This document shows, one piece after another, positions 3,721-61,057 of a stretch of DNA of 64,000 nt. Within the stretch, counting starts at the first letter, position 1. The number at the start of each line of letters is the position of its first letter. This DNA comes from Deroplatys truncata (taxonomy: Eukaryota > Arthropoda > Insecta > Mantodea > Mantidae), in assembly GCA_030765065.1 (NCBI GenBank), contig CM060978.1:54278421-54342420 (forward strand), written 5' to 3'. The translations under genes were made by a program, and so were the position numbers. The notes beneath the pieces are model-generated. The model was not told the DNA's origin and made no database searches. It saw nothing but the letters and a program-made list of their open reading frames with translations.

Positions 3721-3847
3721 TACCAACCTTGGAATTTTAAGTTCAGCATTTGGAAATTAACTATTTGTGAGATATTCCTTGTTATTTGGTTTTAATCTTC
3801 AAATAGTTCCATTTTTTTCAAATGAGTAGTCGTTTCCCCAAACCCTT

Positions 3848-3881
3848 CATGGTCTTGTAAACAGCATGGTCTTGTAAACAG
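3848..3881. repeat. Two exact 17-bp tandem repeats
   Basis: CATGGTCTTGTAAACAG occurs twice in a row, followed by a further CAT. It is a short tandem duplication in non-coding DNA next to a RepA insertion. Confidence 0.9.
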
Positions 3882-3897
3882 CATAGCGACACGCTCT

Positions 3898-4727
3898 ATA
3901 AAAATGTGATGTGTTACACTCACATGACTGTCTCTACTCTTGTACAAACTATTTTTACAATCGCTTATTCTCCATATGCTTCATGTTAATCGAGATGTTA
4001 ATCTTATTGCTCATTTTCTTGTAGATGCAAGGGGAATTGGTAGGCATTAAGCGATAGTGAAATATTTTAACAGCAGGTTGCTATGTTGAGTGTTCCATTC
4101 TCTTTTGCGTTACCAGGACAAAACAAATGAATAACGAATTCTCATTTGAGAAAAAGTATAAGTATTGGAAAATTTAAGGGAATAACAAGCAATATCTCGA
4201 AAATGGTTCACTCAACAAAAAATGTGTCACATAAATTGTATATTTTAACCCGATCTACGTTTTTTGTGTGATAAAATTTTGTCTATCTCTTATGGTTTAC
4301 CAGTTATGCAAAAGTCGTTCACAATGAAGAATACTTTTGGAGATTCCCAGAAAATTCAAGATATACATTTTATTTGTCATGAAAATATACGATATTTTAA
4401 TCAAAATCGTAAGAGCATTTCTAAAAAAATTAAAATTTTCGAAAAATGTTCCACGCAAAGGGTAATCTGGGGTGAGGGGATTTTATTGGAAACCTTCGTG
4501 TCGCATCTCTGGAAGATACTGAACCTAAATACCAAGTTCGGTGTTTATCCGACTGCTCGTTTGAGTTATACTGTTCACAGACACACACACACGGAATGTT
4601 TCCAAAAATGCCTTTTTTGGATTCAGGGGGTCTCAAAACATATATTTCCGGTGAAATCTCGGTATAGAAATTTTGGGTGGAATACAATACTTCCCCTACT
4701 TACTATAAGTCGTAGAGAAAGTAAAAA
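3898..4727 (+). repeat. RepA, near full length
   Basis: It runs from GTGATGTGTTACACTCACATG to GTAGAGAAAGTAAAAA and is preceded by TATAAAAA. The CA core is short (about six repeats). It abuts a second, 5'-truncated copy at an A-run. Confidence 0.9.
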
Positions 4728-5340
4728 TGAATAACGAATTCCCATTTGAGAAAAAGTATAAGTATTGGACAATTTAAGGGAATAACAAGCAATATCTCGA
4801 AAATAGTTCACTCAATAAAAAAAAAACAAATGTATATGACAAATTGTGTATTTTAACGCGATCTACAATTTTTGTGTAGTAAAATTTTATCTATCTCTTA
4901 TGGTTTACCAGTTATGCAAAAGTCGTCAAAATGAAGAATACTTTTGGAGAGATTTCCAGAAAATTCCAGATATACATTTCGTTTGTCATGAAAGTATCTT
5001 AAATATATGATATTTTAATCAAAATCGTTAGATCCGTTTTTGAGAAAATTAAAATTTTCGAAAACGTTACATGTAAAGGATAATCTGGGGTGGAGGGATT
5101 TTCTTGAAAACCTTCGTGTCGCATATCTGGAAGATTCTGAACCAAAATACCAACTTTGGTGTTTATCCGACTGTTCGTTTCTGAGTTATGCTGTTCACAG
5201 ACACACACACGGACATGTTTCCAAAAATGCAGTTTCCAGTGCACCTCAAAACATGTATTTCCTGTGAAATTTCGGTATAGAATTTTTGGGTGGAATGCAA
5301 TACTTCCCCTACTTACTACACGTAGTAGAGAAAGTAAAAA
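4728..5340 (+). repeat. RepA, 3' two-thirds, head-to-tail with the previous copy
   Basis: It begins exactly at the internal block AATGAATAACGAATTCCC, which follows the A-run in complete copies, and continues to a normal 3' end. The same junction occurs at 29483 and 56007. Confidence 0.9.
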
Positions 5341-6171
5341 TCTAATGCGATACATTCACATGACTTCCTCCACCCTCTATAGTTTATTAGTGGGTACACA
5401 AACTATTCTTAATAAATCTTATTTTTCTATTTACTACATTTTAATCCAAATAAACCTTTGCAGAAATAGCTACATTACACATTACGATATAGATACAAAG
5501 AGAACAGCGATAGTCAAATGTTTAAGAACTGGACGCTATATGCTGGCCTTAAAATTCCATACTGTTTCCATGCAAGTGTGAGAAACCACTGAACGCTACA
5601 AGGGCCAAGAAATGAACAATTCGAACCCTTAATAATGGTATCTCAGAAATGGCTTATGTCAGAAGAAAATTTGTTTAAAATAAATTGTATTTTTTAAAGA
5701 GATCTACATGTTTTGTGTAGTAATTTTCCGTTTATAGCTTACGTTTACCAGTTATACAAAATTATTAAAAATTCCCTCCGAATGAAGGGTTCATTAGGCT
5801 ATTCCCCGAAAATTCAAGATAACATTTTATTTATCATATAAATTCTTGAATATATGGTATTTTAATCAAAATCGTTAGATCCATGTTTTTAGAAAATAAA
5901 AAATTTCGAAAAATGTTCCATGTAAAGGGTAGTCCGGGGTAAGGAATTTTGTTGAAAAACTTCGTGTCGCATCTTTGGAAGATTTTAAAACCTAAATACT
6001 AAGTTTGGTATTTATCCGACTGTTCACAGATACACGGACATGTTTCCAAACACACTTTATTTGGATTCAGGGCGCCTCAAAATGTGTATTTCCGGTTAAA
6101 TAAGGGTAAGGAATTTTTGGGTGGAATACAATACTTCCCCAACTTGCTATACGCAGTAGAGAAAGTAAAAA
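5341..6171 (+). repeat. RepA subfamily II
   Basis: A diverged copy whose 5' third differs: ACATGACTTCCTCCACCCTC, CTACATTTTAATCCAAATAAACC, and GAACTGGACGCTATATGCTGG replace the usual blocks. The 3' half is the ordinary RepA with a much reduced CA core. Other subfamily II copies start at 9198, 26545, 38961, 54336 and 57998. Confidence 0.8.
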
Positions 6172-6268
6172 TTAGACAATATTAAGCTTTTGTATGAATT
6201 TTTGTGGAGGAGTGACTAGAGAAAGTCGTATGAATGCAACCATAAGAAATGTTTTTCTAATGCAGTGC

Positions 6269-7810: not shown

Positions 7811-8268
7811 GTATTTGCATTTCATTCAAAAATTCGATACAGAGATTTCACCTGGTATGCACATTTAGAGAATCGCTGAATCCAAAGAAAGAACTTTTTG
7901 GAGAAAGGCCCGCGTGTATGAACAGCATACCAAAAACGGAAACTCGGCTAAATACCAAACATGGTATTTAAGTTAAGTATCTTGTAAGGGTGTGACAGAT
8001 TTTCAAGAAATACTCCCACCCCAAATAAATTTTCCATGAACAATTTTCGAAAATTTTGAGTTTTCTCAAAAAGGTTATAACGATTTTGATTAAAATACCT
8101 CAAGTTATTTTTATGTCAAATTAAATGCATATCTTGAATTTTCTGAGAACGTCCCCAAAAGTCCTCTTCATTCTGAATAACTTTTGCATAACTGGTAAAC
8201 CGAAATGAGACAAAATTTTACTACACAAGAAATGTAGCTCGCGTTAAAACACACAGTTTATGTCATAC
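7811..8268 (-). repeat. RepA fragment, interrupted by the next copy
   Basis: The 3' half of a diverged RepA with a collapsed TG core. It breaks off at the ATGTCATAC block, where a second RepA begins. The remainder of this outer copy is not seen beyond 9118. Confidence 0.75.
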
Positions 8269-9118
8269 CTTTTTACTTTCTCTACTACGTATAGTAAGTA
8301 GGGAAAGTATTGTATTGCACCCAAAAATTCGATTTCGAGACTTCACCGGAAATATATGTTTTGAGACCCTCTGGTTCCAAAAAAGGCATTTTTGGAAACA
8401 TGTCCGTGTGGTATGTGTGTGTGTGTGTGTGTGTGAACAGCATTAACTCAGAAACGAACAGTCGGATAAACACCAAACCTGGTATTTAGGTTCAGTATCT
8501 TCCAGAAATGTGACACGAAGGTTTTCAAGAAAATCCCCCTCCAGATTACCCTTTACATAGAACATTTTTCGAAAATTTTAATTTTCTCAAAAACGGCTCT
8601 AATGATTTTGATTAAAATATCATACGTTTAAGATATTTTTATGGCAAATACAATGTATATCTTGAATTTTCCGGGAATGTCTCCAAAAGTATTCTTCATT
8701 GTGAACGACTTTTGTATAACTGGTAAACCATAAGAGATAGGCAAAATTTTACTACACAAAAATGTAGATCGCGTTAAAATACACAATTTTCTTTTGTTGA
8801 GTGAACCGTTTTCGAGATATTGCTTGTTATTCCCTTAAGTTTTCCAATATTTATACTTTTTCTGAAATGGGAATTTGTTATTCATTTTTTATGCCCTAGG
8901 CATGCAAAGAGAATGGAATGCTCCACATAGCAACCACCTCTTAAAATATTTGACTATCGCTTAAAATCTACCAATTCCCCTTGCATCTACAAGAAAAATA
9001 GCAATAAGATTAACATCTCGATATCTCGATTAACATGAAACATATGGTGAATAAGCATTTGTAAAAATAGTTTGTACAAAAGTAGAGAAAGACATGTGAG
9101 TGTAACACATCGAATTTT
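8269..9118 (-). repeat. RepA, full length
   Basis: It runs from TTTTTACTTTCTCTACTACG to the 5' end near TGTAACACATCGAATTTTC. The TG core has about 10 repeats, with one GTATG interruption. Confidence 0.88.
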
Positions 9119-9139
9119 CTAATGAAATCCCTCTATCGT

Positions 9140-11758: not shown

Positions 11759-13278
11759 AACTGGTGTGCAAAACCTAAGGACTAAAGTAATCTTTGCATG
11801 CGTGACACTGCAAAGTAACACTCGATGAAACTTGAATCATACATAGAGGGAACTACTGCGGTATGCTACAGTAGGCAACTAAACGAAATATACAATGAAA
11901 CGAACAGAAATGCCACTTTTATCTATAGACCATAAGCTACACTAAAGTCAATATGACATATGATGGCTGTCTAGATTTACAGAAACAGATACATGGTGCT
12001 TAAAAGGGTGTATGATCACCACGGACAGCAATGCATGCTCTGCATCGTGCTATGTTGGCCACAAGGTTGGCAAGCAGTTCTTGTGGTAGGGCGCTTCATT
12101 CCTCCACCAGCTGTTGACAACTGTTGGATGCATGTGGATGTGCTGCAATGCGTCTCCCCAAAGCATCCCACACGTGTTCGAAGGGATTTAAATCGGGGGA
12201 ACGGGCAGGCCAGTCCATTCGCCGAATACCCTCTCGTTCTAAGATATCCTCCACCTGCGCTGCTCGATGCGGTCGCATATTGTCATCCATAAAAATGAAG
12301 TCAGGGTGACTACACCCCTGAAAAGACGCACATGGGCAAGGAGTACAGTATCACAATTACGCTGACCAGTGACTTGTTCAAAGATTTGGAGGTCGGTGCG
12401 CCCATGCAACATTATGCCTCCCCAAACTATAACACCCGGACCAACAAAAAGATCATGATCAAGGATGTTCCTATGTTCATTACGTATTCCCACCTCTCGC
12501 CAGATGAGGTTACGTCTAGAATCACTACTTAGACTGAATATGCTCTCATACGAGAAGAGCACGCAACCCTATTCTTCGCTGGTCCAATTTTGATGCTCTT
12601 GGGACCATCGCAAACGGTGCAACCGATGTGCGGATGTCAATGAAACGCAACATATTGGCCGTCGGGCAGAGAGACCACCTCTGTGTAGTCGCCGTGCTAC
12701 TGTGTATCGTGAGATTGCGTGCCTAGCTTCCTGTTAAATGTGGTTGCAATTGCACCCGCTGTTTGGCGTGGGTCCATTCTTGCCTGTTGCACAATGTAGC
12801 GGTCATCTGCTGCTGTAGTTGAGCGTGGTCGACCACTACCTCTCCTTGGGACAGCAGCGCCTGTTGTTTGGAAGGTTCCCCGTGCACGTGAAACAATGCT
12901 GTGAGCAATTCCAAACTCCTGTGCAACACACGTCACACTTTGCCCTCCTTCCAGTTTCCCGATGATTCTTCCCTGTGCGAAGGCATCCAAATGGTGTCTA
13001 CGGGTCATGTTGCAATGAAGAACACCACTACAGTGTACCGTAACAGGTCGCTAATTTCCACACACTGTCTTGTCCTATTTCGTCAACTGCCCCGTGTTGC
13101 GGGACCAGACCCATTTGGCACTATAGGCTCGCTACACTCACGCCATGTGACGTCCAGCTTTCTGTGTACGTGTTAGAGACCTCTGGCAGCATGCTCCTGC
13201 ACCTTCATCTACTTCCACCAAGTAGTTCATTTGTTATGTTACTTTACACATCTCGTCCTTAAGTTTTACACACCAATG
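11759..13278 (-). mobile_element. Tc1-type transposon, complete ends
   Basis: A 1520-bp element bounded by TA dinucleotides (11757-11758 and 13279-13280). The ends form an inverted repeat sharing TGGTGTG(C/T)AAAAC(C/T)TAAGGAC over about 22 bp. Length, ends and TA target all fit Tc1. The transposase lies on the minus strand and is broken. The right-hand end adjoins a RepA copy. Confidence 0.92.
12096..13008 (-). pseudogene. Tc1-family transposase, frameshifted
   Basis: Cut-and-paste DDE transposase of the IS630/Tc1/mariner superfamily. The start at 13008 (MTRRHHLDAF) leads into a helix-turn-helix DNA-binding region with a basic GRPRST linker. The catalytic domain follows in two further frames (12239-12562 and 12096-12290). 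The second acidic residue sits in MDDN and the third in NPFEHVW, with 34 residues between by my count, which matches DD34E. The first catalytic aspartate, expected in FSDES, is tyrosine (FSYES, near 12545). With at least two frameshifts and that substitution the protein is inactive. The intact family is about 340 residues. Confidence 0.9.
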
Positions 13279-13308
13279 TATTTAAAGGCGAGTCTTTAAA
13301 TTAAAATA

Positions 13309-14083
13309 TTTTTACTATCTCTACTACGTATAGTAAGTAGGGGAAGTATTGCATTCCATCAAATATTCGATACTGAAATTTCACCGGGAATATATGTTTT
13401 GAGGCATCTTGAATCCAAATAAAGCATTTTTGAATACATGTCGGTTGTGTGTATCTATGAAAGCATAACTCAATGTCGATAAATACCAAAGTTGGTATTT
13501 GAGTTTAGTATCTCCCAAGGATGCGACAGAAAGATTTTCAAGAAAATCCTCCCACCCCAGACTACTTACATGGAATCTTTTTCGAAAATTTGGTTTTCTC
13601 AAAAATAGCTATAACGATTTTGATGGAAATACCATATGTATAAGATATTTTCATGGCAAATTAAATGTAAAACTTGAGTTTTCTGGGAATGTTCCCAAAA
13701 CTCCCTCATTCTGAATGACTTTTGCTTAACTGGTAAAGCGTAGGAGATAGAACAAATTTTTACTGCACAGAAAAGGTAGATGTCGTTAACACACAATTTA
13801 TGTCATATACATTGTTTGCCGTGTGAACCATTTCCGAGGTATTCCTTGTTATTTGTTTGAATTTTTGTATGTGCTGGACATGCAAAGAGAATGTAATGCT
13901 TCACATAGCAAGCAGTTCTTAAAATATTTGACTATCCCCTTGTACCCACAACAAAATTAGCAATAAGATAGTTTCTGCAAATGTTTATCTCGATTAACAT
14001 GAAGTAGATAGAGAATAAGCATCTGTAAAAATGGTTTTACAAGAGTAGGGAAAATCACGTGAGTGCAACACATCAGATTTTTC
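13309..14083 (-). repeat. RepA, nearly full length
   Basis: It runs from TTTTTACTATCTCTACTACG to GCAACACATCAGATTTTTC. The TG core has shrunk to a few repeats (about 13445). It lies 30 bp from the Tc1 element. Confidence 0.85.
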
Positions 14084-14649
14084 TCTTTTCCTTTAGGAGT
14101 GTCTTAGCTATACTAGGTACTTTGTATTATTCTGTCTTAGCTCAGTAGTACAGAAGTGCATATTGACGTCTTAATTCCTGATATCTTTTACAATACCGCC
14201 ACACTGCTCATAAATCTGTATTTGCATTTTATTCCTCTTAGTTACGCAGAGGATCTATAAATCTCAGTAAATTTATGATACCACACCGCTGCAATAAAAC
14301 GCTGAGTCAAGCATTACACATTCATTTTAAGTACAGAAATAGAGTGCATTAAGATGCAAAAATCTTAGGTGTGTTAAGTCATTGTGCAACATTTGCCTAG
14401 GTAGCTTTATTCATGCCTAGTGTGTTGCATTACACACATTTCTACAGGGTATAAATAAGTAAATGTAACAAGGCTCCGTGGTAGGTAGACGAGATTATAT
14501 TTTGTTAATAAACCCATGTCCATAAACGCTTAGTTTACGTGTTAGGGATTCTGAAAATGGAGGGGGGCGTGGGCAGTAAGAATCACAAAAGTTAAAGTAA
14601 AACAGAAAACTGAAATACTGAAAGTAAATATATAACGTTTTAATCATCT
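14084..14649. other. No gene recognised
   Basis: Single-copy AT-rich sequence with no long open frame and no repeat I can identify. Confidence 0.4.
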
Positions 14650-20400: not shown

Positions 20401-20834
20401 ACTCTGAGATCAGTGAAATTAGTTACATAGGTAATTTATTAGGAATGGAGAAATCATCAGCCGCTGAGCAGAGGTAGCCAGAGACCAGAACACTGCAGGA
20501 GAGGGCATCAACCAAGAGGACTAACGATTTCCCGCTACAAAAGACGCCCAACGTCAACGTTTTCCCGCTACAACTACAGGGATTTAATTTCATCTCTAAT
20601 CCGAACATGAGGGGAGTTATACGTGCTCAGGGTTCATACACCCGATACTAATTGTTTATTTTTTGTGTTTAACTTTCGTAGGATAACTGTTTACTTGCAT
20701 CTATTTTAGTTATTTAAAACGAGTGTTTTAGTAGAATTGCGTTTTGTGTGGATATATATGCCTAATACTTAAAACGCTAAAGTTATATTAATGCAATATT
20801 ATGTTCTACACACCCAGTCAAAAAATTAAATATA

Positions 20835-21694
20835 AAAAATCTGATGTGTTACACTCACATGACTTTCTCTACTCTTGTACAAACTATTTTTACAAACGCT
20901 TAATCTCCATATGCTTCATGTTAATCGAGATATCGAAATGTCGATCTTATTGATAATTTTCTTGTAGATGCAAGGGGAACATGGTAAGTTTTAAGCGATA
21001 GTCAAATATTTTAACGCTGGTTGCTATGTGGCGCATTCCATTCTCTTTGCATGTCCAGGACATAAAAAAATGAATAACGAATTTGAGAAAAAGTATAAGT
21101 ATTGGAAAATTTAAGGTAATAACAAGCAATATCTCGCAAACGGTTCACTCAACAAAAGAAATGTATATGACATAAATTGTGTATTTTAACGCGATCTACA
21201 TTTTTCGTGTAGTAAACTTTTGTCTATCTCTTATGGTTTACCAGTTATGAAAAAGTCGTTCATAATGAAGAACACTTTTGGAGACATTGCCAGAAAATTC
21301 GAGATATACATTTTATTTGTCATGACAATATCTTAAACCTATGATAGTTTAATCAAAATCGTTAGAGCCGTTTTTGAGAAAATTAAAATTTTCGAAAAAA
21401 TGTTCCATGTAAAGGGTAGTCTGGGGTGGGGGGATTTTCTTGAAAACCTTCGTGTCGCATCTCTGGAAGATACTGAACCTAAATACCAAGTTTGGTGTTT
21501 ATCCGACTGTTCGTTTCTGAGTTATGCTGTTCACAGACACACAGACAGACCCACACACGGACATGTTTCCAAAAATGCTCTTTTTGGATTCAGGGGGTCT
21601 CAAAACATGTATTTCCGGTGAAATCTCGGTATCGAATTTTTGGGTGGAATACAATACTTCCCCTACTTACTATACGTAGTAGAGAAAGTAAAAA
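20835..21694 (+). repeat. RepA, full length; reference copy
   Basis: The best copy for describing the family. In order: AATCTGATGTGTTACACTCA (with the hairpin ATGTG...CACAT), ACTTTCTCTACTCTTG, GTTAATCGAGAT, TTTCTTGTAGATGCAAGG, GCATGTCCAGGACATA, an A-run, AATATCTCGCAAACGG, TATGGTTTACCAGTTATG, AATCAAAATCGTTAGAGCC, TTCCATGTAAAGGGTA, ACCAAGTTTGGTGTT, GTTCACAGA, a CA/CAGA core, GGACATGTTTCCAAAAATG, TTTTTGGGTGGAATACAATA, and the end hairpin CTACT...AGTAG followed by AGAAAGTAAAA. TAAAA flanks both sides. All three frames are open over parts of the 3' half, but indels and repeat-length changes between copies destroy every frame, so I treat it as non-coding. No transposase relative is seen. Confidence 0.9.
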
Positions 21695-21879
21695 TAACTA
21701 ATGCGAGATTTGAACCGAGGAGCTTATGAGCACAAGCGGTACCTTCTTAACCTCTTGGCAAACGAAACGTTCCCTCTCTGTTTTCAGTAGCTTATAAGCG
21801 TCACCACCTAGAAACACCGTTATACGAGACCATTGCGCTCACAGGACAGAGGCCAATTTACAGTTCCCGGATGTGGGTT

Positions 21880-24113: not shown

Positions 24114-25783
24114 TTTTATTACTTTATTTTTTATTAGGAAATGCCTATTCACGGTGGAAGATTTCGAGAAGTTTTCAATGAAGAGCAACTAGAAGATTTG
24201 AAGAACTATTTCACAGCAAAGGATAAAATGTTTTTTGGAATGACGAAGCAACAATGCAGGAGACTTGTGTTTGACTTTGCAGAACAATGTGAGATTTCTC
24301 ATCCGTTCAACACAGAGACTAGAATGGCAGGTGAGGATTGGCTGGCTAACTTCGTGAAAAAAATTAAATTCAGTGTACGGAAACCAGAGGCAACATCTAT
24401 TGCTAGAGCAATAGGCTTTAACAAGCCAAGTGTTGATAAGTTTTTCTCAATTTTGAAAGAAGTGCGGGAAAAAAATAAATTTCCTGCTTCTGCCATTTAC
24501 AATGCAGATGAATCTGGATTATCTATTGTGCCCAATAAGTTACCAAAGGTAGTTTCACCCACAGGAACTAAGAGTGTTTCCAAAATCGTATCAGCAGAGA
24601 GAGGAAGAAATGTTAGAATCATATGTTGCATTAACGCTACTGGATATTACCTGCCTCCTTTTCTGGTTTTCGCAAGAAAACGGATGCGACCTGAACTTTT
24701 GGAAGGAGCCCCACCAGGAACTGTTGGACATTGTAGTGATAATGGGTGGAGCAATGGAGAAATATTTGTGTTGTTTCTGAAACATTTCAATCTTCATGTA
24801 AAACCTACCCGTGAATCCCCTGTCCTGTTGCTTGTTGACAATCATAAAACACACATAACACTGGAGCCTATCAACTTTTGCTGGGAAAATCATATAATCA
24901 TGGTTGGATTTCCACCCCACACCACTCATCGCCTTCAACCGCTAGATGTTTCATTTTATTGAGCCTTTAAAGACCTATTACAGTCAAGCTTGTGACAACT
25001 TCATGGTTAGTCATCCAGGGCAAGTCATTACCGACAAAAACATTAGTGAGCTGTTGTGCACTGCTTATTTCAAATCAGCTACGGTCGGTAATGCAGTAAA
25101 TCGGTTTAAAGAATGTGGAATCCAGCCTTATGATCCCCTTGTGTTTAGCAAGGATGATTTTGCTGCTGCAAACACCACAGATCATATTCCCATTACGGAC
25201 AATGCTGCAAGTGAAAATACTACTGCCCAGGCTGCAGCACCCAAAGGACAACCCACAGAAACTTGTAATGAAGCACCTAATGATCATGTGCGAGAACAAA
25301 ATGAAGAACCAGGGCCTTCAAGAAATGCTGCTCCCGTTAACCCAAAACCTTGCCGAAGTATTTTTGATTTTAACCCATTGCCTAAGGAAAGACCATCAGT
25401 GAAAAAACGGAAGAGTCATAGGCAATGTGCAAGTGTTTTAACGAGCTCACCTATGAAAGAAATGTTGGTTCAGAAAGAAGCACAGAAGGTGGCACAAGAG
25501 AATTTAAGGCAACAAAGACAAGAGGCTCGGGATGCAAAAAAAAAGAACAGTTGCTACAAAGAAACAGAAGTTTGATTCCTACGAAAAAACTATGAAGCCC
25601 GAACTTCCGACTCCTATGACTTCAGCCCAGACTTCAAAAGAAATAGTGCAATGTCCTGCTTGTGATGAGATCTATGTTGATCCTCCATCAGAAGACTGGA
25701 TAGAATGTTGCAAATGCCACATATGGTGGCACGAGAACTGCTCAAACTTTGAAGGAGGAATATTTGTTTGCTACTTTTGTTAA
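23795..25783 (+). pseudogene. Pogo-type transposase with psq-like HTH, DDE domain and PHD-like finger
   Basis: Exon 1 (23795-23962, 56 codons, MVRNYKKASS...) is a psq/CENP-B-type helix-turn-helix with IPEATLRRRLKKN. A 175-bp intron follows, and exon 2 starts at 24138. Exon 2 continues the DNA-binding region and then the DDE domain: NADESGLS, LLVDNHKTH and THRLQPLDV hold the three aspartates, with 35 residues between the last two by my count. Within LDVSF (about 24950) a single extra base shifts the frame. A second shift occurs in a run of nine A near 25536. The third segment ends in a C4HC3 cysteine/histidine cluster from CPACDEIY to FVCYFC, a PHD-like zinc finger. Apart from two single-base changes all domains are present, so decay is recent. 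A tigger/jerky-like host gene is less likely given the terminal repeats. Confidence 0.92.
23963..24137 (+). other. Intron of the pogo transposase
   Basis: Donor GTAAGA at 23963 and acceptor TTTTTATTAG ending at 24137, with phase 0 on both sides. The pyrimidine-rich 3' part contains an ATT/ATC microsatellite (about 24077-24120). Splicing joins the helix-turn-helix exon to GAAATGCC in frame. Confidence 0.75.
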
Positions 25784-30072: not shown

Positions 30073-30264
30073 TTAAAACTAGATGGTAATATCGACTACT
30101 ATGCTATCTATCCGCAGATAACTAGACGGCACCCTAAAGACAATCTAACCAGGACGTTTAGAAGCAGGGGTACAGTTGCTGTACACATGCCTCTGTGGCC
30201 ATGTGACGAAGAGCAAGATGGTATGGTACAGGGATGAGAACTGGAAGGCTAACCGAGCTACGAG
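30073..30264 (+). mobile_element. SINE-2 body (first of three in the mosaic)
   Basis: It opens ACTAGATGGTAATATCGAC and contains GATAACTAGACGGCACCC and GGGGTACAGTTGCTGTACAC. An LTR begins after CTACGAG at 30264. The uninterrupted version is at 57085-57365. Confidence 0.75.
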
Positions 30265-30465
30265 TGAAGAAGATGGTTGCTTCACGTATGGAAAGCCGAT
30301 TTGAAGTAGTTGCAACCGCACGTATGGTAAAAAATTTCCGGGAGCCTTCACCCCAAATGTACTTTCCGGTGGCCTTTGCTCCAAATGTTTAAAAAATATT
30401 AACTTTCTAATTTTTGACTGTTTCTTTAAATATTATATATTTATGTTTTTACTTTTTTACTATTA
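30265..30465 (-). mobile_element. LTR family 1, terminal 200 bp, truncated by an inversion breakpoint
   Basis: It begins TGAAGAAGATGGTTGC after CGAG, exactly as at 31636 and 35010, and breaks off at TACTATTATAG, where sequence in inverted orientation starts. Confidence 0.75.
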
Positions 30466-31443: not shown

Positions 31444-31635
31444 TTAAAACTATATGATAATATCGAATACTATGCTATCTATCCGCAGATAACTAGACGG
31501 CATCCTAACGCCAATCTTCCCAGGACGTTTAGAAGCAGGGGTACAGTTGCTGTACACATGTTTCTGTGGACATGTGACGAAGAGCAAGATGGTATGGTAC
31601 AGGGATGAGAACTAGAAGGCTCACCGAGCTACGAG
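31444..31635 (+). mobile_element. SINE-2 body, unit A
   Basis: Same block as 30073-30264. It ends in CGAG (31632-31635), the left copy of the LTR target duplication, and resumes after the LTR as CGAGATATCTCCTAAC. Confidence 0.8.
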
Positions 31636-32523
31636 TGAAGAAGTTGGTTGCTTCACGTATGGAAAGTCGATTTGAAGTAGGAGTTGTATTGTAGTTCAAC
31701 TGTTGGGGAGCCGAACTTGAAGTAGCTGCAACCGCACGTACGTATGGTAAAAAGTTTCCGGTAGCCTTCACCCCAAATGTACTTTCCGGTGGCCTTTGCC
31801 CCAAATGTTTAAAAAATATTAACTTCGTAATTTTTGACTGTTTCTTTAAATATTATATATTTAGGTTTTTTACTTCACTACTTTTATTAATCCTTGACAC
31901 AATTTAAATAACACTTCACTGATATAGAGAGCTGTGAGATTCTTTTATTAATTACTTGCACTTTTTAACACGTAAACTATTTTCGTCTCACACGAATACG
32001 TATTAAATTTCTCGAGGACGCATCTCGCGTCCGGTTAGGAACATTGACTACAACCAACGCGTCCAGTTATGAGCGCTGTCTATAAGCAACTGACTTGATT
32101 TCTACCGCTAAAATTTGTAAATTTCTGTATTTCAAGTCTCTGATTGGCTAATCCTACTCCAATAGAATACTTCTATTTAACTTAAGCTTTTTTATGGTGG
32201 TTGTTTGGCCATTTTATAAACATTATTGTTGCTCCAAGAAAGACTAGTAGCATTGTTAAACCTTCAAATTCATTATTGCCTCAAGGTTACCTCATTGTTA
32301 CCACCTTTTAACCTAGTATTCTCACAGCTCCTACATTATTAAATTCCGTAATACATTCAAATAACTTTATTATATGTATACAATAATATAAACATATACA
32401 ATGACTGTAATATACACTTTTTATATATTGTTACTTACACATATTGCTTTAAGGCAGGCTGTTGTTATATTTTCTATTATATAATTAGACTGAAATCATT
32501 TAAGTGTTAAAAATACTCCCTCA
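31636..32523 (-). mobile_element. Solo LTR family 1 with perfect 4-bp target duplication (unit A)
   Basis: An 888-bp LTR starting TGAAGAAGTTGG and ending AATACTCCCTCA, flanked on both sides by CGAG (31632-31635 and 32524-32527). The unoccupied SINE-2 at about 57335 reads TATGAGATATATCC, matching the reconstructed empty site. Compared with the copy at 51374, about 110 bp around the R/U5 region (the GGCTGCGTCAG block) are deleted. Sense is inferred to be the minus strand from AATAAA and CCAAT motifs. Confidence 0.88.
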
Positions 32524-33040: not shown

Positions 33041-33079
33041 TTATTACATTCACATGACATTCCTCACCCATTTATTATC

Positions 33080-33805
33080 TTTACTTTTTCTACTGCTTAG
33101 CTACAATAAGTAGGGGTAATACTGTATTCCACCCAAACATTCAGAAATAGCATAAATCAAAAACGAAACGAAATGTGGGTGAAATACCAAACTTAGTATT
33201 TAAGTTCAGTATCTTCTAATGATGTGACCCGAAGTTAAAAAAAATTCCTCCACCTCAAATTTCCGTTTCAAATTTTTTTATGTTTTCAAATGTTTAGGAT
33301 CAATACACGACAAATAACACTATATCCAGAATAGCCTGTGAAGTACACTTCATTCGGAAGGAATGTTGTATAATTTTTGTGTGACTGGTAAACTTTGACA
33401 CTAATTAAAACTTATTACACACAAAAAGGTAGATCTCCTTAAAACACACAATGTATTGCAAACAATGTTTTGTGGTATCAGCATTTTCGAAATATCCGTT
33501 AATATTAGTTTCAATTATTCAATGATTTGTAATATTATTAAGGTCCTCTCGCTATTCGCTTGTTACTCGCGATGCTATGGAAAGAAAATGGAATTTTAAA
33601 GTCTTAGCGAGGCTCTTGACTGTCGATTCGGTTTCCTCTATATCTGTTGTACTTGGAACGAAATGTCTAATGAAACTATATCCACAAATGCTATCTCCAT
33701 CAAGATGAAGCATATAGAAAAACAAGCCTGCGTAAGAATAGTTTGTAGAAGGTACATAAAAATAAATGATAGTGGGTAGAGAAAGTTATATGAATACATT
33801 TTTTT
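33080..33805 (-). repeat. RepA, diverged, minus
   Basis: TTTACTTTTTCTACTGCTTAG starts it. The TG core has been lost completely (ATTCAGAAATAGCATAAATC follows directly). It ends near GGTAGAGAAAGTTATATGAA. In unit B this copy is split by an LTR. Confidence 0.75.
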
Positions 33806-34081: not shown

Positions 34082-34818
34082 AAGTCTTATGTGTTGCACT
34101 CACATGACTTTCTCTATTCTTCTGCAAACTATTTTTACAAACGCTTATTCTCCATCTAGTTCATAATAATCGACTTTAACATTTGCAGAAACTATATTAT
34201 TGCTAATTTTCTTGTAGGTGCATGTCCAGGACGTAAAAAACACTAATAACGAATTACCATTTGAGAAAAAATATAAGAATTGGAAAATTCAAACAAATAA
34301 CAAGCAATACTTGGAAATGGTTCACTCGACAGAAAAAGTGTGACAAAATTGTGTGCTTTAACGAGATCTACATTTTTTTGTGTAGTAATATTTGGCCTAT
34401 CTCTTACGATTTACCAGTTATGCAAAGGTCATTCAGAATGAAGGAAACTTTTGGAAACATTACTAGAAAATTCAACATATACATTTCATTTGGCATAAAA
34501 ATATCTTAAACAAAAAGTATTTTAATCAAAATCTTAAGAGACATTTTTGGGAAATTCAAAACTTTCTAAAAATGTTCCAGTAAAGGGTAGTTTGGGGTGT
34601 TGCATCTTTGGAAGGTATTAAACCTAAACAGCAAGTTTGGTATTTATCAGATTTTTCGTTTGTGTTATTTTTTTCACTGACACACACGGGTATGTTTCCA
34701 AAAATGCTTTATTTGGATTCTCAGACCTCAAAATTATTTCCGGCGATATCCGGTATCGAATTTTTAGAGAAAAGCAATACTTTTCCTGCTTACTATATGT
34801 AGTAGAGAAAGTAAAAAT
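34082..34818 (+). repeat. RepA inserted in SINE-2
   Basis: It begins TCTTATGTGTTGCACTCAC after AGTAAAA and ends GAGAAAG before TAAAA. The intact SINE-2 at about 57128 has GTAGTAAAAATGAAATG at this point, giving a readable empty site. Some internal sequence is shortened, including the core. Confidence 0.88.
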
Positions 34819-35009
34819 TAAAACTATATGATAATATCGAATACTATGCTATCTATCCGCAGATAACTAGACGGCACCCTAATGACAATCTAACCAGGAC
34901 GTTTAGAAGCAGGGGTACAGTTGCTGTACACATGTTTCTGTGGCCATGTGACGAAGAGCAAGATGGTATGGTACAGGGATGAGAACTGGAAGGCTCACCG
35001 AGCTACGAG
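34819..35009 (+). mobile_element. SINE-2 body, unit B
   Basis: Same block as in unit A, again ending in CGAG at 35006-35009. Confidence 0.8.
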
Positions 35010-35900
35010 TGAAGAAGTTGGTTGCTTCACGTATGGAAAGCCGATTTGAAGTAGGAGTTGTATTGTAGTTCAACTGTTGGGGAGCCGAACTTGAAGTAGC
35101 TGCAACCGCACGTACGTATGGTAAAAAGTTTCCGGTAGCCTTCACCCCAAATGTACTTTCCGGTGGCCTTTGCCCCAAATGTTTAAAAAATATTAACTTC
35201 GTAATTTTTGACTGTTTCTTTAAATATTATATATTTAGGTTTTTTACTTCACTACTTTTATTAATCCTTGACACAATTTAAATAACACTTCACTGATATA
35301 GGAAGCCGTGAGATTCTTTTATTAATTACTTGCACTTTTTAACACGTAAACTATTTTCGTCTCACACGAATACGTATTAAATTTCTCGAGGACGCATCTC
35401 GCGTCCGGTTAGGAACATTGACTACAACCAACGCGTCCAGTTATGAGCGCTGTCTATAAGCAACTGACTTGATTTCTACCGCTAAAATTTGTAAATTTCT
35501 GTATTTCAAGTCTCTGATTGGCTAATCCTACTCCAATAGAATACTTCTATTTAACTTAAGCTTTTTTTTATGGTGGTTGTTTGACCATTTTATAAACATT
35601 ATTGTTGCTCCAAGAAAGACTAGTAGCATTGTTAAACCTTCAAATTCATTATTGCTTCAAAGTTACTTCATTGTTACCAACCTTTAACCTATTATTCTCA
35701 CACGCTCCTACATTATTAAATTACGTAATACATTCAAATAACTTTATTATATGTATACAACAATATAAACATATACAATGACTGTAATATACACCTTTTA
35801 TATATTGTTACTTACACATATTGCTTTAAGGCAGGCTGTTGTTATATTTTCTATTATATAATTAGACTGAAATCATTTAAGTGTTAAAAATACTGCCTCA
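35010..35900 (-). mobile_element. Solo LTR family 1 with CGAG target duplication (unit B)
   Basis: The duplicated copy of the LTR at 31636, 891 bp, with CGAG at 35006-35009 and 35901-35904. It has the family-typical TACTGCCTCA end, whereas unit A has TACTCCCTCA. Confidence 0.88.
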
Positions 35901-36412: not shown

Positions 36413-36454
36413 TTTCACTTATTACATTCACATGACATTCTTCACCCATTTATA

Positions 36455-44213: not shown

Positions 44214-45166
44214 TTAAAAATCTGATGTGTTACACTCACATGACTTTCTCTACTCTTGTACAAACTATTTATACAAACGCTTATTCTCCATCTACTTCAT
44301 GTTAATCGAGATAAACATTTGCAGAGTCTATCTTATTGCTAATTTTCTTGTAGATGTAAGGGGAATATATATTTACAAGGGCAATTTGGAAATACAGTAG
44401 CCTTTAAGCACATACATATCTCTTAATAGCTGGTTGCTAGGTGCAGCACCATTCCCTTTCCCACAGATTAATACACTTTGCATATCCAAGACAAAAATGA
44501 ATAACGAATTCCCATTTGAGAAAATAAGTATTGAAAAATTGAAGGGAATAACAAGGAATATCTTGAAAATGATTCACTCAAAAAAAAAATGTATGACATA
44601 AATTGTTTATTTTAACGCGATCTACATTTTTTGTGTAGTAAAATTTTGTCTATCTCTTATGGTTTACCAGTTATGCAAAAGTCGTTCACAATGAAGAATA
44701 CTTTTGGAGACATTTCCAGGAAATTCAAGATATACATTTTATTTGTCATAAAAATATCTTAAACATATGATATTTTAATCAAAATCGTTAGAGCCATTTT
44801 TGAGAAAATTAAAATTTTCGAAAAATCTTCCATGTAAAGGTAATCTGGGGTAGGGGGATTTTCTTGAAAACCTTCGTGTCGCATCGATACTGAACCTAAA
44901 TACCAAGTTTGGTGTTTATCCGACTGTTCGTTTCTGAGTTATGCTGTTCACAGACAGACACACACACACAGACAGACACACACACAGACAGACAGACAGA
45001 CAGACACACACACAGACACACAGACACACACACTGACATGTTTCCAAAAATGCTTTTTTGGATTCAGGGGTCTCAAAGCATGTATTACCGGTGAAATCTC
45101 GGTATCGAATTTTTGGGTGGAATACAATACTCCCCTACTTACTATACTAGTAGAGAAAGTAAAAAT
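44214..45166 (+). repeat. RepA, full length with the most complex core
   Basis: Both termini are intact, with TTTAAAAATCTGATG on the left and AGAAAGTAAAAATTTATT on the right. It is among the longest copies because of an extra ATATATATTTACAAGGGCAA segment near 44365 and a long core. Confidence 0.92.
44950..45033. repeat. CA/GACA compound microsatellite, RepA core
   Basis: 84 bp alternating (CA)n with (GACA)n blocks. Other copies have pure CA, so the core has changed its repeat unit within the same flanks. Confidence 0.95.
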
Positions 45167-45644
45167 TTATTACACATTTTGATGTTATGTTTACCTCTTT
45201 ATTAACAGTCATTTAAATTTCTGGATTTTAAATCCAAGTTTTTGAAGCTTTTTCCTACGCTCCTTCAAAATGGAGTTTTCGTCCAATTTTTGTGAAATTT
45301 TTCATACATATTAAAAGAAGGGCCACACGCAAACACATAATTGTAAAGGTGTTTTGAATTATTCCTTTATAAGGCAATAAGTAATTAACAACCTGGAGAA
45401 ATATAAATTCATATTTTAAAAAATTACTTGTTTTTAATTAAAACTAGCACGAAGAACAGACAAATCTGAGTACTATAGTAAAATAGTTTTAAAATTTTTT
45501 CGTGTGAAATGTTTGGTTTAGGATATTAACAGTAATTTTTGAAACTCAGCTTGTTGAAAACAGAGAGAAATATCAAAATTTAAAATCACTCAATGTTTAA
45601 ATAAAAGAAACTTAAGATTATATTTTCAGCCAAATGATACTTAC
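45167..45644 (-). other. Putative intron downstream of the ABCG exon
   Basis: AT-rich sequence beginning with the donor GTAAGTATC (minus strand, 45644 downward). I cannot find the next exon, which should continue after the Walker A segment, in this stretch; it is presumably further left among the repeats or outside the window. Confidence 0.5.
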
Positions 45645-49689: not shown

Positions 49690-50237
49690 AGTTTAAACAA
49701 ATTAGGAAAAACAATGCATCCTGTAGAGCATTTTGAGTATGAAAAAATTTTAAATTTATAGCTTCTCTTAACTGAAATTTAAATGCTTCAATTTCAAAAA
49801 AAGTATTATTTCTTGTTAGAATCCATATTGTTTTATTACGAAAAAAAATAATTTTTATATTTTTCACTTTTCTTTTTTGCAAATTTTACAGATACATTAC
49901 CTTAACAGAATATGATTTAACTTAATTAGAAAACGAACCGCTGTCTAAGTCGTAAGCAATATTAGCAGGAAAAACCCAAAGTTTATTGCGGTATTTCCGG
50001 ACAGATATTTATTGTGTGAAAGACCTTCGGGAATACTGTCTGCCCTTAGTCGACATTAACAATAAGGAGAGAATCATCAGCGGTTGAGCAGTTGGCAACA
50101 CCTATGTTGAAGGTTAAAAAGGTTGTATAAGAGAACATTAATCAAATCTCCTGAAGGTGCACCTACAGATTTTGAGAGAGTGGAAGTAAATTTATCATCT
50201 CCATAATGAACTGGCTTCTGTACAAGAGCTTTAGAAA
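49690..50237. other. No gene recognised
   Basis: AT-rich single-copy sequence. The minus-strand 73-codon frame ending here is rich in lysine, isoleucine and phenylalanine, and looks like chance AT-rich coding. Confidence 0.4.
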
Positions 50238-51087
50238 AAAAATCTGATGTGTTACACTCACATGAGTTTTTCTACTCTTGTATAAACTATTTTTACAAAC
50301 GCGTATTCTCCATATGCTTCATGTTAATCGAGATGTTAATCTTGTTGCTAATTTTCTTGTAGATGCAAGGGGAATTGGTAATATTTAAGTGATAGTCAAA
50401 TCTTTTAAGAGCTGGTTGCTATGTGGCGCATTCCATTCACTTTGTATGTCCAGGATATAAAAAAGAATGAATAACGAATTCCCATTTGAGAAAAACTATT
50501 GGAAAATTTAAGAGAATAACAAGCAATATCTCGAAAATGGTTCACTCAACAAAAAAAATGTATATGACATAAATTGTGTATTTTAACGCGATCTACATTT
50601 TTTGTGCAGTAAAATTTTGTCTACCTCTTATGGTTTACCAGTTATGCAAACGTCGTTCACAATGAAGAATACTTTTGGAGACATTTCCAGAAAATTCGAG
50701 ATATACATTTCATTTTTCATGAAAGTATCTTAAAAATATGATATTTTAATCAAAATCGTTAGGCCATTTTTGAGAAAATTAAAATTTTCGAAAAAAGTTC
50801 CATGTAAAGGGTAATCTGGGATGGGGGATTTTCTTTAAAACCTTCGTGTCCCATCTCTGGAAGATACTGAACCTAAGTACCAAGTTTGGTGTTTATCCGA
50901 CTGTTTTTTTCTGAGTTATGCTGTTCACAGACAGACACACACACACACACGGACATGTTTCTAAAAGTGCTTTTTTTGGATTCAGGGGGTCTCAAAACAT
51001 GTACTTCCGGTGAAATCTCGGTATCAAATTTTTGGGTGGAATACAATACTTCCCCTACTTACTATACGTAGTAGAGAAAGTAAAAAT
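50238..51087 (+). repeat. RepA, full length
   Basis: It starts AAAATCTGATGTGTTACACT and ends GTAGAGAAAGTAAAAATG. The core is (CA)9-10. The left flank is GAAAAAAA, so the TAAAA flank seen elsewhere is not exact here. Confidence 0.92.
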
Positions 51088-51189
51088 GTGATATTACTAC
51101 AGATACAAACGATACAGATACAATTCTTATAAATACATTTATATGAATTAATACAGAAATATTTCAGTTTACAATGAGATTGCAATTAA

Positions 51190-54917: not shown

Positions 54918-55149
54918 GTGAAAGTTAAAAAAATCTGGTGTTACACTCACATGGCTTTCTCTACACTTGTATAAACTAATTTTACAAACGCTTATTCTGC
55001 TTCATGTTAATCGAGATATCGAGATGTTAATCTTATTCCTATTCTTGTAGATGCAAGGGGAATTGGTAGGCTTTAAGGGATAGTCAAATATTTTAACAGC
55101 TAGTTGCTATGTGGAGTATTCCATTCTCTTTGCATTACCAGAACAAAAA

Positions 55150-56006
55150 AAAATCTGATGTGTTACACTCACATGACTTTCTCTACTCTTGTACAAACTA
55201 TTTTTACATACGCTTAATCTCCATATCCTTCATGTTAATCGAGATATCGAGATGTCGATCTTATTGATAATTTTCTTGTAGATGCAAGGGGAATATGGTA
55301 AGTTTTAAGCGATAGTCAAATATTTTAACGCTGGTTGCTATGTGGCGCATTCCATTCTCTTTGCATGTCCAGGACATAAAAAATGAATAACGAATTTGAG
55401 AAAAAGTATAAGTATTGGAAAATTTAAGGTAATAACAAGCAATATCTCGCAAACGGTTCACTCGTCAAAAGAAATGTATATGACATAAATTGTGTATTTT
55501 AACGCGATCTACATTTTTCGTGTAGTAAACTTTTGTCTATCTCTTATGGTTTACCAGTTATGAAAAAGTCGTTCATAATGAAGAACACTTTTGGAGACAT
55601 TGCCAGAAAATTCGAGATATACATTTTATTTGTCATGACAATATCTTAAACATATGATAGTTTAATCAAAATCGTTAGAGCCGTTTTTGAGAAAATTAAA
55701 ATTTTCGAAAAATCTTCCATGTAAAGGGTAGTCTGGGGTGGGGGGATTTTCTTGAAAACCTTTGTGTCGCATCTTTGGAAGATACTGAACATAAATACCA
55801 AGTTTGGTGTTTATCCCACTGTTCGTTTCTGAGTTATGCTGTTCACAGACACACAGACAGACACACACACACGGACATGTTTCCAAAAATGCTCTTTTTG
55901 GATTCAGGGGGTCTCAAAACATGTATTTCCGGTGAAATCTCGGTATCGAATTTTTGGGTGGAATACAATACTTCCCCTACTTACTATACGTAGTAGAGAA
56001 AGTAAA
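55150..56006 (+). repeat. RepA inner copy, full length
   Basis: AAATCTGATGTGTTACACTC to GTAGAGAAAGTAAAAA, inserted in the internal A-run of the outer copy. It is very similar to the copy at 20835-21694, including the shared variant GAATTTGAGAAAAAG and the GACAGACA core, so these two are recent relatives. Confidence 0.92.
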
Positions 56007-56464
56007 AATGAAAAATGAATTTCCAGTTGAGAAATAGTATTAGAGAATTTAAGGGAATAACAAGCAATATCTCGAAAATGGTTCACTCAACAACAAAAAT
56101 GTATATCACATAAATTGTGTATTTTAACGCGATCTACATTTTTAGTGTAGTAAAATTTTGTCTCTCTCTTATGGTTTGCCAGTTATGCAAAAGTCGCTCA
56201 CAATGAAGAATACTTTTGGAGACATTCCCAGAAAATTCGGGATATATATTTCATTTGTCATGAAAATATCTTAAACATATGATATTTTAATATAAATAAT
56301 TAAAGCCATTTTTGAGAAAATTAAAATTTTCGAAAAATGTTCCATGTAAAGGGTAATCTGGGGTGGGGGGATTTTCTTGAAAACCTTCGTGTCGCATCTC
56401 TGGAAGATACTAAACCTAAATACCAAGTTTGGTGTTTATCCGACTGTATTTATGCTGTTCAAAG

Positions 56465-56465
<1 letters not shown>

Positions 56466-56511
<46 letters not shown>
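56466..56511. repeat. (CA)23 microsatellite, RepA core
   Basis: The longest pure CA tract in the window, directly after GTTCAAAGT and before AGGACATG. Confidence 0.97.
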
Positions 56512-56512
<1 letters not shown>

Positions 56513-56648
56513 GGACATGTTTCCAAAAATGATTTTTTTGGAATTCAGGGATGTCTCAAAACATATTTCCGATGAAATCTCGGTATCGAATTTTTGGGTG
56601 GAATACAATACTTTCTCTAGTTACTATACGTAGTAGAGAAAGTAAAAA

Positions 56649-56959
56649 GTGAGATTCAAAGGTTTTCAGATGTATATTCCAAATGTTTACGTAATATAAA
56701 AGGAATTAATTCTTCGCTTCTAACACCAGTCAGTGATGATACATCGTAGACCATAAATATAACGTAATAAGCAGGCATTGTAGTTACACAATTATGGGTC
56801 ATAAAAAGCTTATCCTTCAACATCTAATAGCAGCTCTATAAGACGAAAATGGTGTGACCAACCTAAACAAATGATGGTACCACTAGTTGGGCGTATAATG
56901 CACAAGAACCTACGAAAAGAAAAAGCTTATTTTTTATTACTTCAACCACGACTCAACAA
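56649..56959. other. No gene recognised
   Basis: Single-copy sequence of about 310 bp between RepA and SINE-2. Confidence 0.4.
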
Positions 56960-60205: not shown

Positions 60206-61057
60206 TAAAAAATCTGATGTGTTACACTCACATGACCTTCTCTACTCTAGTACAAACTATTTTTACAAACGTTTATTCTCCATGTGCTTCATGTTAATCG
60301 AGATGTTAATGTTATTGCTAATTTTCTTGTAGGTGCAAGGGGAATTGGTAGGCTTTAAGCGATAGTCAAATATTTTAAGAGCTGGTTGCTATGTGGCGCA
60401 TTCCATTTTCTTTACATTACCAGGACAAAAAAAATGAATAACGAATTTCCATTTGAGAAAAAGTATAAGTACTGGAAATTTTAAGGGAATAACAAGCAAT
60501 ATCTCGAAAATGGTTCACTCAACAAAAAAATGTATATAACATAAATTGTGTATTTCAACGCGATCTACATTTTTCGTGTAGTAAACCTTTGTCTATCTCT
60601 TATGGTTTACCAGTTATGCAAACGTCGTTTACAAGAACACTTTTGGAGACATTCCCAAAAATTCAAGATATACATTTCATTTGTCATGAAAATATCTTAA
60701 ATATATGATACATTAATGAAAATCGTTATAGCAATTTTTGAGAAAATAAAAATTTTCGAAAAATGTTCCATATAAAGGGTAATCTGGGGTGGGAGGATTT
60801 TCTTGAAAACCTTCGTGTCTCATCTCTGGAGGATACTGAACCTAAATACCAAGTTTGGTTTATACTGTTCGTTTCTGAGTTATGCTGTTCACAGAGACAC
60901 ACACACACACACACACACACGGACATGTTTCCAAAAATGCTTTTTTGGATTCAGGGGGTCTCAAAACATGTATTTCCGGTGAAATCTCGGTATCGAATTT
61001 TTGGGTGCAATACAATACTTCCTCTACTTACTATACGTAGTAAAGAAAGTAAAAAAT
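60206..61057 (+). repeat. RepA, full length
   Basis: TTTAAAAAATCTGATGTG to GTAAAGAAAGTAAAAAATTG, with TAAAA on both flanks. The core is (CA)12. Confidence 0.93.

Follow-up and report, generated by a model that had tools for sequence, protein, structure and literature searches.

RepA, the dominant repeat of a Deroplatys truncata locus, as a probable HINE sharing its ends with an autonomous Helentron

How can a repeat without any gene come to dominate a genomic locus, and to which kind of mobile element does it belong? This question is raised by a 64,000-nucleotide stretch of the mantis Deroplatys truncata (assembly GCA_030765065.1, contig CM060978.1, positions 54,278,421 to 54,342,420; hereafter the window), part of contig C4 of the 4.29-Gb genome, and by its main interspersed repeat, RepA. 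An earlier note, made from the letters of the window alone, had found that RepA fitted no recognised family. The element can nevertheless be placed: with a probability of about 0.92, judging from its sequence, RepA is a HINE, a non-coding and non-autonomous Helentron (a DINE-1-like rolling-circle element). Its movement most likely depends on a Rep/helicase/endonuclease supplied in trans by autonomous Helentrons that belong to its end family and number in the dozens at least in the genome. Directly observed here are the anatomy of RepA, the ends it shares with such a Helentron, the frame and domains of this partner, insertion into T-runs with paralogous empty sites, strong self-nesting and a composite unit of RepA 5-641 plus Helentron; from these, mobilization in trans, the nicking and stopping chemistry and the way in which the unit arose are deduced.

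RepA reads 5' to 3' on the minus strand in its reference copy (Table 1). The 5' end consists of T5, ACTTTCTCTAC(T) and a partly complementary inverted repeat, with a (TG)n microsatellite about 130 bp into the element, while at the 3' end GTAGAGAAAGT is followed by the palindrome ATGTG-AGTGTAA-CACAT, an AGA preceded by C and, last, a T-run. Hairpin folding is predicted for both ends. The subterminal inverted repeats (subTIRs) of 11-12 bp, ACTTTCTCTAC and GTAGAGAAAGT, are found in RepA and in the Helentron described below, in line with the published family rule of at least 11 identical bp. As expected of a HINE, an inverted repeat lies beside the 5' subTIR, a palindrome separates the 3' subTIR from the 3' end, and no long open reading frame (ORF) common to the copies was seen in the ORF lists, which agrees with the absence of a conserved frame reported earlier. 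T-rich flanks, subTIRs, 5' inverted repeat, microsatellite in the 5' block and 3' palindrome are all features of HINE/DINE-1 elements (also called INE-1, DNAREP1, mini-me or SGM), whose layout has been described in PMC4067079 and PMC2374699 and, for oyster HINEs, in PMC7492417. The suspicion that this kind of repeat was known from other invertebrates was thus well founded. RepA differs from HINE/DINE-1 in having its own subTIR (ACTTTCTCTAC(T)), (TG)n in place of a GTCY-rich microsatellite, a consensus without a visible central tandem-repeat array, a shorter 3' tail (about 22 nt) and a strong internal insertion hot spot.

A longer, protein-coding element with the same ends, which the earlier note had proposed to look for, exists in the genome. 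A genome search with Helitron_like_N (PF14214), in which the best 150 of 291 candidates were scored, returned 152 matches; among the matches listed, 18 lie in open frames of more than 2,000 codons (2,108-2,543). Sixteen autonomous copies were read, one as a whole element of 9.8 kb (C4:200.72-200.73 Mb, loci L029 and L030) and 15 more of these 18 by their ends. The first ~730 bp of the whole Helentron correspond to RepA 7-723 (91.7% identical over 739 bp) and its last 40 bp to RepA 834-873 (95% identical), which places RepA in the same end family; ends common to a non-autonomous element and an autonomous Helentron of the same genome are what is expected of a HINE. Its frame of 2,324 codons (protein P0001) encodes Helitron_like_N (1.2e-27) and PIF1 (3.1e-28) together, as in Helentrons, and the helicase resembles Helraiser 7lcc (9.3e-22). 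P0001 also contains YYQRVEFQMRGSPHEH, the Helentron form of Rep motif 2, in which an S stands between G and P (VEFQMRGSPHEH; PMC4067079). When the C-terminal region was scanned alone, Exo_endo_phos_2 (PF14529) was detected at 28.3 bits, against a cut-off of 27.4. The order Rep, PIF1, Exo_endo_phos_2 in one frame is that of autonomous Helentrons, from which P0001 differs by N-terminal Herpes_teg_N-like (residues 67-212) and DUF6570 (716-843) domains separated by a long lysine/glutamate-rich stretch of KESERKRNKEYMEQ-type tandem repeats. The genome contains 47 exact matches to the 3'-end string of this Helentron. Other Helitron_like_N matches (e.g. C1:38.1, C13:170.3, C4:128.9 and C16:246.5 Mb) have higher PF14214 scores and mostly internal stops; they are probably older, separate Helitron families.

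Target sites are T-runs. For one RepA inserted into a Helentron, the empty site GTA-T8-CTATATT can be compared with the filled site GTA-T6-[ACTTTC..CAGA]-T7-CTATATT, and neither this pair nor the nested site in the window has a target duplication distinguishable beyond the T-runs. A T-rich target with no duplication and a paralogous empty site is typical of HINEs. The short inverted repeats at both ends could also suggest a miniature inverted-repeat transposable element (MITE) derived by deletion from a cut-and-paste transposon that has terminal inverted repeats, and DINE-1 itself was formerly called a MITE (PMC2374699). This origin is very improbable, as the ends of RepA are asymmetric, with a palindrome outside the repeat on one side only, the fixed-length target site duplication of a MITE is lacking, and the same-ended element encodes Rep/helicase rather than a DDE transposase. 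Equally improbable is descent from a canonical Helitron (5'-TC..CTRR-3' ends, A|T target). Such elements have the same Rep/helicase architecture, and other, mostly broken Helitron_like_N lineages reside in this genome, but RepA has no CTRR end, targets T-runs and carries subTIRs, while its partner has a fused C-terminal endonuclease and the Helentron form of Rep motif 2.

Within the window, the 58 matches to an nhmmer profile built on 10 full-length copies account for 26,886 of 64,000 bp (42%), while five shuffled windows had no match; blastn with the copy at 20840-21700 as query gave 55 pieces. These 58 matches merge into 50 elements, close to the first estimate of about 40 copies and about 26 kb; in element orientation, the 5' end is present in 33, the 3' end in 18 and both in 14. 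There are 28 exact occurrences of ACTTTCTCTAC or its complement (11 + 17) and the termini align across copies, as the claim of constant ends implied, and the span 20835-21694 first given for the reference copy comprises the element plus flanking A/T runs. The statement that the (CA)n core always lies between GTTCACAGA and GGACATGTTTCC was too strong: allowing one mismatch in the former and two in the latter, both motifs border the core in 14 of the 30 window matches that cover this region and in 13 of 39 such matches from the 20 sampled loci introduced below; an uninterrupted TG/GT run of 8 bp or more is present in 11 of those 14 and 11 of those 13. What stands is the description of RepA as one dominant interspersed family that codes for nothing, has fixed ends and contains a microsatellite; the constancy of the microsatellite flanks does not.

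Genome-wide abundance was estimated from twenty 10-kb stretches at round coordinates on six contigs, placed before their sequence was seen. The RepA profile covers 33,453 of 200,000 sampled bp, i.e. 16.7% (standard error 2.8), ranging from 0 (three stretches) to 41% per stretch, and 12.5% when only matches of at least 200 bits are kept; three shuffled versions and one reversed version of the sample gave no match. Scaled to the genome, this amounts to about 0.7 Gb, and the window, at 42%, is richer in RepA than average. Many of the sampled matches are partial and diverged, as would be the case if this share consisted mainly of old, decayed copies of an element no longer mobile. Such extinction is rather improbable. 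The reference copy has 3,621 first-look candidates in the genome, and the best 40 of these, itself included, were scored and are 98-100% identical over practically their full length, on many contigs; the Helentron 3' ends are likewise 98.5-100% alike among the copies read. Two shorter derivatives, in which model positions 6-109 are joined to 546-875, lie in sampled locus L027 (4046-4434 and 8388-8776) and are perhaps an amplified deletion form. Contig C16 has matches beyond 601 Mb, compared with 155-339 Mb for ten other contigs; we take it to be, possibly, a large sex chromosome.

RepA inserts preferentially into itself. Of 51 true termini in the window, 15 lie no more than 12 bp from another copy; 2,000 random trials gave a mean of 0.75 and a maximum of 7. 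The favoured site is the T-run at model position ~641, of which the window holds a complete nested example (54927-56649), and the exact junction in which RepA-641 is followed by a 5' end (an opening) occurs 18,247 times in the genome (control, 0). A second T-run, near plus-strand query position 742, bears an opposite-strand insertion in three of the 40 scored copies. Both halves of the nested host are present in the window and also at C4:200.7 Mb, where the Helentron lies at site 641 of one RepA, this RepA occupies the same site of a second, and the 3' remainders of both come next.

By the mechanism envisaged, the Rep nuclease would nick RepA at its 5' end (T-run + ACTTTCTCTAC), one strand would be displaced in the 5' to 3' direction as a new one takes its place, the palindrome that follows GTAGAGAAAGT would serve as stop signal, and the freed strand would be joined into a T-run without target duplication. 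When copies are nested, a start at the outer 5' end and a stop at the first 3' end met would yield a composite unit, and a unit of this shape, from outer 5' end to inner 3' end as rolling-circle movement predicts, is found. In 13 of the 16 autonomous copies, the 5' end of the Helentron is joined to a RepA 5-641 piece (x) by the same joint (AAATGCGTTATTCATTTT, then ACTTTC), which is lacking at C5:31.1, C3:172.0 and C10:14.4; allowing one mismatch gives 14 of 16, the added copy (C5:31.1, L042) having a different T-run and a piece outside the clade formed by the others. In 14 of its 30 genomic occurrences, the strict joint is separated by 9.6-10.1 kb from a Helentron 3' end belonging to the set of 47; the sequence it leads into was read at the loci described here. 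A tree of 42 RepA pieces groups 12 of the 13 x pieces in a single clade (support 0.934) and leaves out L063, a shortened piece. Seven of the 13 units (C9:66.1, C13:170.85, C10:86.3, C13:75.8, C4:193.7, C1:248.3 and C4:69.4) differ in their 3' flanks and lack an x remainder; at C13:170.85 and C4:69.4 the whole unit interrupts a reversed RepA, of which both halves remain. The single origin of x together with these seven flanks identifies RepA-x plus Helentron as one mobile unit, located at no fewer than seven distinguishable sites and derived from one founding event copied many times rather than from 10 independent events. At three further sites (C8:76.4, C5:94.8 and C13:112.4) one remainder is present along with an outer host RepA, to which it was assigned, although it could be x's own. 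The x remainder is retained at C4:200.7 and C10:233.6, which could reflect terminator bypass or the original nested site, and C1:33.2 has two remainders, its upstream side lying outside the region read. C8:76.4 and C1:33.2 share an identical 40-base flank, so some sites may be duplicates or belong to a still larger unit. In the literature searched on nesting and terminators, consulted in excerpts and covering few subscription journals, no description was seen of an autonomous Helentron that spreads together with a 5' end captured from a non-autonomous element.

Several observations weigh against the placement of RepA as a HINE mobilized by rolling-circle transposition, or against its details. 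Its 3' subTIR lies about 22 nt from the end, compared with 38-60 bp in mite HINEs (PMC4067079), a spacing not taken as defining all HINEs because the source gives it for those of mites. The scan of the whole P0001 protein, with matches listed to an E-value of 0.05, showed no endonuclease. In the Helentron read, no counterpart of RepA ~736-833 was found; the profile match there reaches 752. Over the last 60 bases the two elements agree at 38 positions (31 of the last 33), short of the 80% of the published subfamily rule; by that rule they belong to the same family but to different subfamilies, so the Helentron read may not be the mover of RepA and its direct mobiliser may be another Helentron subfamily. 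Concerning polarity, openings outnumber closings genome-wide by 18,247 to 8,358 (2.18:1), but the junction motifs decay unequally (intact in 18/66, 6/60, 21/59 and 17/45 matches) and decay alone predicts about 2.6:1; the raw ratio was consequently rejected as proof of polarity, which the calibrated counts did not confirm. Pairing by coordinates in C1:14.3-31.0 Mb, where 93 openings form 74 clusters and 46 closings form 41, has the same weakness. One of the four same-strand site-641 cases among the 40 scored copies (~50 bp of flank) is closing-only, the other three being opening-only. The bias toward 3' truncation was likewise rejected as evidence, 5' and 3' ends numbering 33 and 18 in the window but 35 and 35 in the genome sample. 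Extra openings are present in the window composite at 3899-5342, L008 and L061.

These counts bear on another origin of the chained copies ([5-641]n + full), namely recombination or deletion between nested copies instead of directional movement. The calibrated numbers are compatible with simple nesting plus decay, a closing-only case exists, and one chained array lies within a 9.7-kb inverted duplication. Recombination or deletion is nonetheless the less likely source, since x has one origin in 12 of 13 copies and at least seven copies with different 3' flanks and no x remainder behave as a mobile unit, while the mirror unit (inner 5' end with the outer 3' part, without the outer 5' part) was found in none of the 16 autonomous copies. 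Joints located at the T-run hot spot inside RepA are explained by nesting. Tentatively, and with slightly less than even odds, rolling-circle movement of RepA could be self-seeding: the machinery would prefer the T-run at model ~641, so that each copy adds landing sites, and movement that starts at the outermost 5' end and halts at the first 3' end would turn nested copies into mobile composites that gain 5' ends, the autonomous Helentron itself being such a composite and spreading mainly in this form.

Table 1. Features of the reference RepA copy and of full-length, nested and composite copies, in window positions.
Feature	Position	Strand	Basis
Reference full-length RepA (HINE)	20833..21697	-	nhmmer model 4-875, 1009 bits
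5' T-run (AAAAA on plus)	21690..21694	-	sequence; TTTTT directly before ACTTTC in 8/8 genome copies read
5' subTIR ACTTTCTCTAC	21679..21689	-	sequence, motif counts, copy alignment
Inverted repeat CTACT...AGTAG, overlaps 5' subTIR	21663..21682	-	sequence; predicted DNA hairpin, consensus 5' 40 nt, -5.6 kcal/mol
Microsatellite core and flanks GTTCACAGA / GGACATGTTTCC (plus-strand spelling), 5' block of element	21529..21570	-	sequence
Internal T-run (A7 on plus), model ~641, self-insertion hot spot	21064..21070	-	sequence, nested copies, junction counts
3' subTIR GTAGAGAAAGT	20862..20872	-	sequence, copy alignment
3' palindrome ATGTG AGTGTAA CACAT, putative terminator	20844..20860	-	sequence; predicted consensus hairpin, -2.9 kcal/mol
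3' T-run at insertion site (A6 on plus)	20834..20839	-	sequence, genome copies
Nested site, host RepA 3' part (model 639-875)	54927..55152	-	blastn, profile
Nested site, full RepA inserted at host model ~641	55147..56010	-	blastn, profile
Nested site, host RepA 5' part (model 6-642)	56005..56649	-	blastn, profile
Composite, RepA 5-642 (4724-5342) joined to full RepA (3899-4728)	3899..5342	-	blastn, profile
Divergent full-length copy, 3' end abuts composite at shared T-run	5335..6173	-	profile
Full-length RepA abutting other copies at both termini	8267..9120	+	profile
Full-length copy	13307..14084	+	profile
Full-length copy with long microsatellite	44215..45168	-	profile
Full-length copy	50236..51089	-	profile
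Full-length copy	60206..61057	-	profile

The composite at 3899-5342 is missing its outer same-strand 3' part and is followed by an opposite-strand fragment (model 558-707) at 3759-3909. Larger RepA-containing repeats have also been copied in the window. Three 5' ends (30073-30432, 31444-31852 and 34818-35226) are followed by a common flank with a 28-bp tandem repeat (TTTCCGGTAGCCTTCACCCCAAATGTAC), and two RepA-like 5' ends (33067-33142 and 36445-36519) are each preceded by the same reversed 3'-end remnant, pointing in both cases to a copied larger unit. Elsewhere in the genome, the 9.7-kb inverted duplication (L060, C1:26123400-26133100) has arms 97% identical, chained RepA pieces and a centre with ~76-bp periodicity; two mirror-image junction pairs like it lie at C1:13.83 and C1:22.03 Mb. 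Transposase remnants in the window (24138-25575, 61729-62765, 12096-13050 and 40917-41494), with DDE_1, DUF4817 helix-turn-helix, HTH_32/DDE_3 and Transposase_1, look mariner- and Tc1-like by eye, and a reverse transcriptase fragment lies at 681-1052 on the minus strand (RVT_1, 4.9e-15). No Helitron domain was found in 10 scanned ORFs of the window, which lists 304 non-RepA ORFs of at least 45 codons. Blastn against phages, an Rfam search and a tRNA search were empty. Neither the 3'-end nor the 5'-end pattern of RepA occurred in a viral contig collection, nor did a slightly stricter 3' pattern in a genome contig collection, records of this genome possibly being excluded from both.

Among known systems, oyster Cg_HINE has the same two-module layout with subTIR, inverted repeat, microsatellite and palindrome (PMC7492417), whereas RepA has no satellite-like central array. 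The autonomous copies read here differ from other autonomous Helentrons in that 13 of 16 bear a RepA fragment as an extra 5' end. Chains of several 5' ends with one 3' end are also known from tandem Helitron arrays in plants (Xiong et al. 2016, as reviewed in PMC12628747), but the plant model invokes terminator loss from a circle, while RepA joints are found at an internal T-run hot spot; Helitron clustering and tandem arrays have likewise been ascribed to missed terminators (PMC4067079). Helraiser and bat Helibat share a 3' hairpin terminator that can be bypassed, with capture in ~11.7% of events (PMC4778049), and differ by canonical Helitron ends, an AT target and capture at the 3' side. High Helitron shares have been reported in other genomes: PMC6327564 gives 28% for the house fly and 7% for a blow fly, PMC4067079 gives 6-6.6% for a bat and a butterfly, and PMC7486953 gives an average of 13% of repeat content for grasshoppers; the share of RepA is therefore high but not a record. 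No paper on RepA was found by title when its end sequences were searched as text, and the words Helitron and rolling are both absent from the text of a mantis paper (PMC10600911).

With this placement, a dominant and unnamed repeat gains a position among known elements and is tied to an autonomous relative with long open frames, and a single gene-less family is estimated at roughly 0.7 Gb (16.7% of the 200-kb sample, scaled). Its nested and composite copies constitute a natural record from which the direction and stopping rules of Helentron movement might be readable, and young copies with a matching partner make a good system for testing Helentron transposition. If true, the self-seeding feedback would help to explain how a family without genes has filled about a sixth of a 4.3-Gb genome.
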